Shown here: positions 61,365 through 63,250 of the stretch, in pieces
Position numbering within the stretch: position 1 is the first letter of the stretch
Layout of the letters: the number at the start of each line of letters is the position of its first letter
NCBI RefSeq assembly: GCF_036924515.1
Contig: NZ_JAZHRR010000001.1
Span: forward strand, 5,303,001 to 5,367,000
Reading direction: 5' to 3'
DNA from: Bradyrhizobium sp. AZCC 1610
Lineage (GTDB): Bacteria > Pseudomonadota > Alphaproteobacteria > Rhizobiales > Xanthobacteraceae
Length of the DNA: 64,000 nt
Notes under the pieces: model-generated
Database searches by the model: none
Seen by the model: only the letters and a program-made list of their open reading frames with translations
What the model was told of the DNA's origin: nothing
Program-made: the position numbers and the translations under genes

Positions 61365-61495
61365 TAGGCACGGCCGATCTTGCGTTCAACAGGACTGTCA
61401 TCACCCGCGAAAGCGGGTGATCCAGATGCTATGGGGGGAGCGGCGGCGAGGGTGTGGATACCCTCGAGCGCCGTGATCACGCAATGGAGCACCCC

Positions 61496-62668
61496 ATGTC
61501 GCAATCGTTTGACGCCAGCAGGTCCCTCACCGCCTTCGAACAGGATAGCACGTTGGTCGCAGTGATCGAGATGAGCCAGTCGAAGTGGCTTGTTGCGGCT
61601 ATGATCCCGGGGGTCGAGCGCCAGCCCCTGAAGAAGCTTGGTGCAAATGCGGACGCTCTGCTGAAGCTGTTGCAGCGCTGGCAGGATGAAGCGCGCAAGG
61701 CCGGGCGGACGGTCAGGCGGATCGTCTGCGCCTATGAGGCCGGGCGAGACGGATTCTGGCTGGCGCGCTGGCTGCAGGCGCGCGCCATCGAGGCCTACGT
61801 CATCCATGCCGCAAGCATCGCAGTGTCCCGCGAGCACCGCCGGGCCAAGACCGATCGGATCGATACGGAACTGCTGATGCGCTCGTTTCTCGGCTGGCTG
61901 CGTGGCGAGAAGCGCCATTGCAGCATGGTCGCGATCCCGACCATGGCGGAAGAAGATGCGCGGCGGCCGAGTCGTGAGCGGGAGAGCCTCGTGGGCGAGC
62001 AAACACGGATCGTCAACCGGATCAAGGCTGTCCTCGCCCTGTTCGGCATCGGCGGGTTCAATCCGAGGCTGCGCAAGGCGGCGCAGAAGCTGGAGACACT
62101 GCACACCGCGGAAGGAACACCGTTACCGGAAAATGCCCACGCCGAATTGCGCCGCGATCTGGAGCGGCTGCGCCTGGTGCACGACCAGATCCACATCATC
62201 GAAAGTGAACGGTTGCGCCGGCTCGCGCTCGCGCCGGCCGCAACGACAAGGCCTCACGCGATGGTTCGTCTGATCGCAAGGGTTTTTGGCGTCGGCATCG
62301 AGACCGCCGACATGCTGGTAAATGAGGCGCTGGCGCGCAAGCTGCGCGATCGCAAAGCTGTTGCGCGCTATGCTGGACTGACCGGCGCGCCGGACGAGAG
62401 CGGCAAGCGCCGGCGCGAGAAGGGACTGGCCCGCGCCGGCAATGGTCGGGTCCGCCGCGGCATGATCCAACTGGCCTGGCGCTTTCTGATCTTCCAGAAG
62501 GATAGCCGGCTCGTCCGCTGGTTCCGCGAGCGCACCGCAGATGGCCGCAGCGCCACGCGCAAAACCATGATCGTGGCGCTGGCGCGCAAGCTGCTCATCG
62601 CGCTGTGGCGGCTGGCAACCACCGGCGAGATGACGGAGGGGCTCAGGCTGCGCCCGGCCGGAACCTGA
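61496..62668 (+). CDS. IS110-family DEDD transposase
   Basis: 390 residues. The N-terminal RuvC-like domain shows acidic residues Glu25 (in AVIEMSQSKW, where Asp is more usual), Glu81 (CAYEAGRDG), Asp120 and Asp123 (AKTDRIDTELL). The C-terminal domain carries the Transposase_20 pattern VFGVGIETADMLV and YAGLTGAPDESGKRRREKG, including the conserved Ser, followed by GNGRVRRGMIQLAW. The frame is intact. ATG at 61496 follows GGAG; in-frame starts at 61484 or 61454 are possible. The Glu-for-Asp exchange at the first position should be checked for activity. Confidence 0.88.
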   Translation: MSQSFDASRSLTAFEQDSTLVAVIEMSQSKWLVAAMIPGVERQPLKKLGANADALLKLLQRWQDEARKAGRTVRRIVCAYEAGRDGFWLARWLQARAIEAYVIHAASIAVSREHRRAKTDRIDTELLMRSFLGWLRGEKRHCSMVAIPTMAEEDARRPSRERESLVGEQTRIVNRIKAVLALFGIGGFNPRLRKAAQKLETLHTAEGTPLPENAHAELRRDLERLRLVHDQIHIIESERLRRLALAPAATTRPHAMVRLIARVFGVGIETADMLVNEALARKLRDRKAVARYAGLTGAPDESGKRRREKGLARAGNGRVRRGMIQLAWRFLIFQKDSRLVRWFRERTADGRSATRKTMIVALARKLLIALWRLATTGEMTEGLRLRPAGT

Positions 62669-62742
62669 CCATGCAGCTTCCGCAACCCCAACACGATTGA
62701 CGGTTCAGCAGCCGGCAGTCTGCCGACGACATCCGAGGTGGC

Positions 62743-62868
62743 GGTGATCCGCCGGAATACATGGCCTTTGCGCCGCGACCCAGAATGGACCCGCCGCCCC
62801 GGAGCTTCGCCCCCCGATGCGCATGCATGCATCATGGTTCTGGTCCCGATCGATCAACCGAATACAAG
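62743..62868 (+). ncRNA. Candidate bridge (seek) RNA guide region of the IS110-family element
   Basis: Within the non-coding 3' part of the element, GGTGATCC (62743-62750) equals the target left of the insertion point (61416-61423). After 3 nt, GGAATAC (62754-62760) is the reverse complement of the target to the right (63141-63147, GTATTCC). Further on, ATACAAG (62862-62868) equals the element's own right end (63135-63141). This order and sense/antisense split match target- and donor-binding loops of bridge RNAs. Exact RNA ends and the second donor guide were not identified, so the span marks guides only. Confidence 0.4.
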
Positions 62869-63250
62869 TCTGCGACGCGGTATCGCGTCCACGGTGGGCT
62901 CGCCTCGGAAGTCGTCCCTATGCCGCTAACGCCAAACCTCGTCCCGCCCTCAAGCCTGCCGCCGGGCTCACGACCGTCAAGGGCTGCGTCGCTCCGCGAT
63001 GGCCTGCGGCCACCCTTGACCGTCGTTCCGCCCAGGCGGCTAGTCGTCTCGGGGTCGGGACGAGGAGATGTCGGTCTTCGTCGAACAAGGAGACGACAGC
63101 AATGATCTGACAACGATCACTCTTGATCACCCCCATACAAGTATTCCAGAGACACCAGCTATTGAGCCGATAAGCCGCGGCGTACTGGTTACTCCGCTTT
63201 CGCGGAGTATGACCCGCTGTGGGTGAAACGGCGGACATGGACTACATCAG

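Follow-up and report, generated by a model that had tools for sequence, protein, structure and literature searches.

An IS110-family element of 1,716 bp (positions 61426-63141, forward strand) splits a composite REP-like repeat in the 64,000-nt stretch of Bradyrhizobium sp. AZCC 1610 DNA analysed here (the window). The question raised by this locus is how the element finds its site. A preliminary description, made from the letters of the DNA alone, had proposed, for the non-coding sequence at the 3' side, a bridge/seek RNA with split guides that correspond to the element's own site and ends. Such an RNA is predicted from covariation among homologues, and both covariation and fold strongly support this part of the proposal. 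We give a probability of about 0.95 to the reading that the element is a natural RNA-guided insertion sequence, made up of a recombinase and a downstream structured RNA with two guide-bearing regions and inserting at CCAG/TATTCC (the slash marks the junction).

Ends, copies and target repeat of the element

The element and the repeat that it splits comprise the following features (all on the + strand):

61397..61425: left hairpin arm of the composite REP-like repeat; the orthologue is uninterrupted in L114 and L119
61424-61425: core AG, closing the left target, which is the last 7 nt of the left arm (GATCCAG; from copies and empty sites)
61426..63141: insertion sequence, IS110 family (12 same-junction copies, precise empty sites)
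61430..61437: left subterminal inverted repeat TATGGGGG, preceded by the 4-nt left end ATGC (from the sequence)
61454..62668: transposase/recombinase, 404 aa from GTG or 394 aa from the in-frame ATG at 61484 (Pfam, NCBIfam, fold)
63130..63137: right subterminal inverted repeat CCCCCATA, followed by the 4-nt right end CAAG (from the sequence and homologues)
63142..63213: remainder of the composite repeat, with the right target TATTCC, the inner spacer, and the right arm (63185-63213)

The ends were fixed at 61426 and 63141 because 12 copies share the same junction and the orthologous repeat is uninterrupted at two loci of genus relatives (L114 and L119), where the element is absent and the left arm is continuous with the right flank; the ends named in the preliminary description were borne out. 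A DNA search of the 7.75-Mb chromosome revealed 12 near-full copies including the window copy, the other eleven being 95–99% identical to it. All 12 have one junction and one orientation, with a left flank ending in CCAG, then the element, then TATTCCAGAG. Target duplication was absent at the junctions. Instead, a 2-nt AG is shared (61424-61425 and 63140-63141), which makes the junction ambiguous by 2 nt and is the expected shared core. The transposase frame was unbroken in 8 of the 12 copies and split in 4, and the target-loop sequence was identical in all of them. The split-frame copies (L006, L008, L010, and L011) keep the target loop unchanged and therefore could be moved only by protein made elsewhere.

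The composite repeat (~100 bp) consists of two hairpin arms around an inner spacer. The arms, described earlier as 29-bp inverted repeats of each other, do match in this way, but imperfectly (22 of 29 positions). Among seven orthologous neighbourhoods in genus relatives (L114-L120), the repeat was present at two; the other five loci (L115-L118 and L120) had no composite repeat, which suggests that this repeat moves or is frequently lost. The genome contains 26 exact occurrences of the right-core marker CCRCGGCGTACTGG, 12 adjoining the element and 14 not. The genome search for empty repeats that had been proposed at the outset gave three exact CCAGTATTCCAGAG junctions, so that 12 of 15 junctions of this form (occupied plus exact empty sites) are occupied. 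When up to three mismatches to GAYCCAGTATTCCAGAGAC were allowed, 12 empty-junction places were found, vs. two for the reversed control pattern. The term high-copy repeat was too strong for this genome, where 26 exact markers make the repeat moderately abundant; the target junction was present in 191 of the 195 genomes searched, source genome included. The opposite arm read outward gives CCAG/TACGCC. Not one of the 12 insertions lies there, in line with discrimination by the right guide.

The subterminal repeats TATGGGGG and CCCCCATA match perfectly over 8 bp and at 10 of 11 positions when extended by eye; in homologues they were 7–10 bp, perfect, where found. In the predicted circle-junction sequences (CATACAAG-ATGCTATG), 8 nt would separate them (4+4, or 6+2 with the core assigned to the left side).

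Guides and fold of the predicted downstream RNA

The 473 nt downstream of the transposase gene (62669-63141) are non-coding. The features predicted there (all on the + strand) are:

62732..62868: bridge/seek RNA core, from the outer stem through the left-donor guide (structure conserved in 38 elements)
62737..62798: target loop region enclosed by stems 1 and 2
62737-62744 with 62791-62798: stem 1 (alignment fold)
62748-62751 with 62786-62789: stem 2 (alignment fold)
62752-62761 x 62776-62785: internal loop with both target guides (RNAalifold)
62754..62760: right-target guide GGAATAC, antisense to core G plus TATTCC (covaries with the right flank)
62762..62775: hairpin between the target guides, 62762-62765 with 62772-62775 (84.5% of cells paired)
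62777..62783: left-target guide GACCCAG, sense to the left target, AG core included (covaries with the left flank)
62816..62833: GATGC/GCATC hairpin, 62816-62820 with 62829-62833 (paired in all sequences)
62828-62833: right-donor guide TGCATC, antisense to core G plus ATGC of the left end (follows the left end)
62862..62868: left-donor guide ATACAAG, same as the element's right end (follows the right end)
63123..63128: putative -35-like TTGATC, 17 nt ahead of the left-end TATGGG once the ends are circle-joined

A scan of genome contigs yielded 62 homologous loci, of which 53 were examined for ends; nine (L068-L070 and L077-L082) lay outside this examination. Sixteen of the 53 were dropped with no identifiable end and 37 were kept, or 38 with the window copy. 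L033 was excluded from the covariation test (left flank of only 5 nt). The ends of the homologues agree with small variation (a flank ending in AG, then ATGCTATGGGG on the left; CCCCATACAAG on the right), with a left end of the TATGGGG type in the 37 kept, whereas their targets differ. Alignment of their non-coding regions showed two variable blocks. The first is antisense to the right flank; the second is sense to the left flank and ends in AG ahead of a conserved AATGG.

Both blocks follow the targets. Among 26 non-redundant elements, agreement with the target extended to 113 of 130 variable positions for the left guide, where permutations averaged 36, and to 136 of 182 for the right guide, where they averaged 50; none of 20,000 permutations came up to either score. 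For all 37 usable elements, the values were 159/185 and 201/259, respectively, again with 0/20,000 permutations each. These permutations ignore kinship, and some elements share targets (L037/L072/L076, L093/L095, L092/L096, and L084/L085). Eleven further elements, three close and eight ISRel9-like including ISRel9, gave 43/55 for the left guide (permutation mean 18.8, max 40) and 69/77 for the right guide (mean 33.9, max 60), with 0/20,000 in each case; here the right guide could shift by one base, in control pairs as in true ones, and loop anchors were picked by eye. These eleven came from a second set of 20 loci, from which seven distant IS110s (L105-L108 and L110-L112) were excluded because recognisable anchors were absent, L094 because no right end was found, and L123 as a duplicate of L086. 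L123 lies on a Bradyrhizobium barranii plasmid, one flank being identical to that of L086 in a genus genome; the plasmid search fetched four records, among 40 listed of 381. The covariation of guides and insertion sites, which the preliminary description had proposed as a check, was thus positive for GGAATAC and GACCCAG, and such covariation across different targets strongly supports a predicted bridge/seek RNA with split guides.

Matching was at background to the left of -7 and waned on the right past +6 to +7. L045, L047, and L053 fit better by eye when shifted by one, which makes the fixed alignment conservative; the right-target fit was poor in L062. GG stands in place of the AG core at the left junction of L025 and L062, and therefore the core may tolerate GG. 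At the 12 sites of the element itself, the right guide fits every time, while GACCCAG is exact at four (L002-L005), has one mismatch (GATCCAG) at six (L001, L006, L007, L008, L011, and L012), and two mismatches (CGCCCAG) at two (L009 and L010).

The donor guides follow the element ends. ATACAAG had been noticed earlier as a match to the right end, and its assignment as left-donor guide held: guides of this type matched at 337 of 343 positions in 49 elements (20,000 permutations: mean 304.0, max 327). Right-donor guides of the TGCATC type matched at 224 of 245 positions in the same number of elements and permutations (mean 201.8, max 212). The contrast between guide and end types lies largely between two related groups. 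Joint changes were found as GCTTC with AAGC (6 elements), ATGTGAG with ATGTGAG (4), and ATATGAG with ATATGAG (2). Mismatches occurred as well: GCATC with ATAC ends (3), with ATGA, ATGG, and AAGC ends (2 each), and in L090. L025, L026, L031, and L062 have right ends CATACAGG and a left-donor guide that is still ATACAAG.

RNAalifold and the mapped structure comprised the outer stem, stems 1 and 2, the internal loop, its closing hairpin, the GATGC/GCATC hairpin, and, ahead of the left-donor guide, one more stem. GACCCAG lies on the strand of the internal loop facing GGAATAC and begins 17 nt past the end of that guide. In 37 distinct sequences, 93.5% of the cells of the mapped structure were paired, vs. 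38–54% in slid controls; helices 3 and 5 were weaker (84.5%). Conserved structure around 62743-62868, on which the preliminary description had made its proposal depend, was therefore found. Double-changed cells numbered 28 (slid controls 2–7, shuffled mean 9.0), and seven pairs had a double change (shuffled mean 4.4; 16 of 500 shuffles reach 7). A second folding run recovered stems 1 and 2, the GATGC hairpin, and a small number of additional pairs, 20 pairs in all and five of them with double changes, and did not predict the closing hairpin between the target guides or the stem before the left-donor guide. Since the structure was derived from the same sequences, the pairing figures are support rather than an independent test for a predicted RNA fold conserved with some compensatory changes. 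No Rfam family matched the window in a scan at gathering thresholds.

Of 38 elements, 37 have TTGA[C/T] no more than 48 nt from the right end, and 30 have it at exactly 24 nt; a matching -10 was not identified for most of the 38. The position of this motif is suggestive of a promoter that would form when the ends join, as described for the IS110 and IS1111 families (PMC11187229).

The guide assignment has to be weighed against other readings. The preliminary description had taken GGTGATCC (62743-62750) as the left-target guide, in sense and 3 nt ahead of the antisense GGAATAC. GGTGATCC is indeed 8 nt of the left target of the window copy, and sense followed by antisense is the IS621 order; GGAATAC, with six right-target bases plus the core G, was read correctly as the right-target guide. 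However, GGTGATCC lies in stems 1 and 2, GGTGA[C/T]CC recurs at its position in 7 of 37 homologues with other targets (the target-sharing L037, L072, and L076 are related), and the exact sequence occurs in L022, whose left target ends in CCTGTAG. GGTGATCC matched the targets at 34 of 156 positions (permutation mean 32; 7,577 of 20,000 permutations reach this score), against 113/130 for GACCCAG, and was rejected as a guide. The sense-then-antisense order was rejected after the homologues were aligned, the left guide following the right one, and we regard this IS110-type layout as highly improbable. One non-coding sequence at unrelated targets, named beforehand as a refuting observation, is what we see for GGTGATCC and not for GGAATAC or GACCCAG. 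Nor was the original match as unlikely by chance as had been claimed, since in 9.7% of dinucleotide shuffles at least one 8-mer of the 20-nt left flank turns up in the 473-nt region; in 0.4%, a left 8-mer has an antisense right 7-mer no more than 40 nt away. By the second rule, the real sequence has one left match but lacks a right one, as the core G is part of the right 7-mer.

It is also hard to believe that the recombinase itself recognises the repeat and that the resemblance to guides is coincidental. Data of this kind leave room for some role of the protein in choosing the site, but guide-target covariation spans elements at 60–75% and ~40% protein identity, and the RNA is required in relatives (PMC11187229). 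The shared site of the 12 copies might instead reflect copying, if a single insertion had been carried along as the repeat spread; the same repeat type and orientation in 12 of 12 copies would fit this. The flanking repeats, however, are on average only 76.8% identical pairwise (61–90%), vs. 98.1% (95.1–99.7%) for the IS copies, so the insertions were independent, and two orthologous repeats are empty. The chance that the copies arose by repeat spread is therefore very small.

RNA-guided insertion would proceed as follows. The element would supply a RuvC/Tnp-type recombinase and a structured downstream RNA that bears guides in two regions. Of the donor guides, TGCATC would pair with the left end, and ATACAAG matches the right end. 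On the RNA, the recombinase would bring the repeat junction CCAG/TATTCC together with the excised circle, at the point where the ends of the element are joined, and strands would be exchanged at the shared AG core without target duplication. For RNA transcription and processing, circle formation, and strand-exchange chemistry, we infer these steps from published work on IS621 and ISEc11.

The recombinase and its place among known systems

The recombinase contains a RuvC-like domain (PF01548) and a C-terminal domain (PF02371), both above the Pfam cut-off, and matched NF033542, 'IS110 family RNA-guided transposase' (NCBIfam), with 162.1 bits (cut-off 140). Its fold resembles those of ISCro4 and IS621 (VIA-align), both of which were also found in a profile search of PDB sequences. 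A PDB-sequence search with the single protein gave one match, which was spurious. Foldseek and VIA-align also rank TIGR-Tas proteins among the structural matches. The catalytic residues predicted by homology are E39, E95, D134, D137, and S316. The motif thus reads EEDD in place of the strict DEDD tetrad, with the second to fourth acids and the Tnp serine present, and it is homology, fold, and RNA, not the strict motif, that place the element in the IS110 family in the wide sense. Glu at the first position is clade-wide and is the least expected feature of the element: among the 120 closest homologues listed, 119 have the equivalent of E39 and the remaining one has a gap. In the E39 codon region (61567-61572), L060 was the only bearer of Asp among 29 aligned proteins. 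A literature search for 'EEDD' with 'transposase' returned nothing related, which is weak evidence given its thin coverage of subscription journals and preprints.

The guide order, antisense (right) followed by sense (left), is that of IS1111, in which the segment pairing with the top strand lies 5' of that pairing with the bottom strand, while IS110 has the reverse (PMC11187229). According to the same source (Siddiquee et al., 2024), the IS1111 seekRNA elements ISEc11, ISPa11, and ISKpn4 likewise have the non-coding region 3' of the transposase gene and share the guide order, subterminal inverted repeats, and absence of target duplication with our element; ISPa11 also targets REP sequences. 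Differences concern the transposase (330–350 aa in IS1111 vs. ~390–404 aa), its motif (GL-P----S(T)G vs. GLTGAPDESG), and the circle spacing (10 (7+3) or 9 (6+3) vs. 8 nt). Subterminal repeats of IS1111 are 11–13 bp long and perfect or near-perfect; those of our element are perfect over 8 bp and match at 10/11 positions when extended by eye. The element would work like IS1111 and departs from strict IS1111 in protein size, motif, and extensions. It departs from the strict IS110 group as well, which has a long upstream non-coding region with the bottom-strand-pairing guide first; only ~58 nt precede the ATG at 61484.

The IS621 studies (Durrant et al., 2024, PMC11208160; Hiraizumi et al., 2024, PMC11208158) describe a two-loop RNA with left and right target and donor guides, a 2-nt core, a REP target, natural guide/target mismatch, and a protein fold, all shared with our element. 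In IS621, however, the RNA is at the opposite element end with the opposite guide order on the gene's strand, the core is CT vs. AG (CT on the other strand), and D11 stands where our element has Glu. Read on the other strand, the target GGAATA-CT-GGRTC has the IS621 layout with a CT core, and therefore both guide orders may be the same layout, differing in which way the RNA gene faces relative to the core.

The ISRel9-like element L121 (name from the record annotation) has the same guide architecture and order, a left guide GCTTTAG matching at 7/7 positions including the core, a right guide matching at 7/7, and Glu at the first catalytic position. It differs in its target, ends (ATCCC... and ...CATGTGAG), and protein (~40% identity). 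We tentatively suggest, at somewhat less than even odds, that our element and ISRel9 represent a distinct recombinase branch, combining RNA position and guide order of the IS1111 type, a protein of IS110 size, and clade-wide EEDD, in which the first metal ligand, an essential Asp in IS621, would now be Glu with mobility kept. ISRel9 was absent among the literature matches listed, which again is weak evidence because subscription journals and preprints were thinly covered. Specific insertion into REP sequences is also reported for ISPsy8, ISPpu9, ISPpu10, ISRm19, and ISRm22 by Tobes and Pareja (2006, PMC1525189).

Two side observations concern other relatives. In one genus genome (G031, with L094 and other places), a relative at 41% identity is present in ten full-length copies of equal score, which makes it a second multicopy element suited to such an analysis. 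L049 sits in a 23-bp tandem repeat CCGATTGAAACCGCCACCTGAGG (L049:1-45 and 1740-1762), and a CRISPR-like nature of its flank was rejected, since it is this repeat.

The analysis provides a covariation-tested full guide map for a bridge RNA of a lineage for which the accessible literature yielded no worked-out member, and a resource of 37 usable guide/target pairs plus 11 more. Natural guide/target mismatches and naturally altered donor guides are available for study. The case also calls for caution, in that the stretch of a bridge RNA that matches its target over the greatest length can belong to a stem, and only by comparing homologues is the guide found. A few loop bases can pick one of two near-identical hairpin arms. 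With Glu conserved as the first catalytic residue, a question on the active site of the recombinase can be tested directly. To the already known RNA-guided IS110 family, the element adds a predicted IS1111-like RNA paired with an IS110-size protein.
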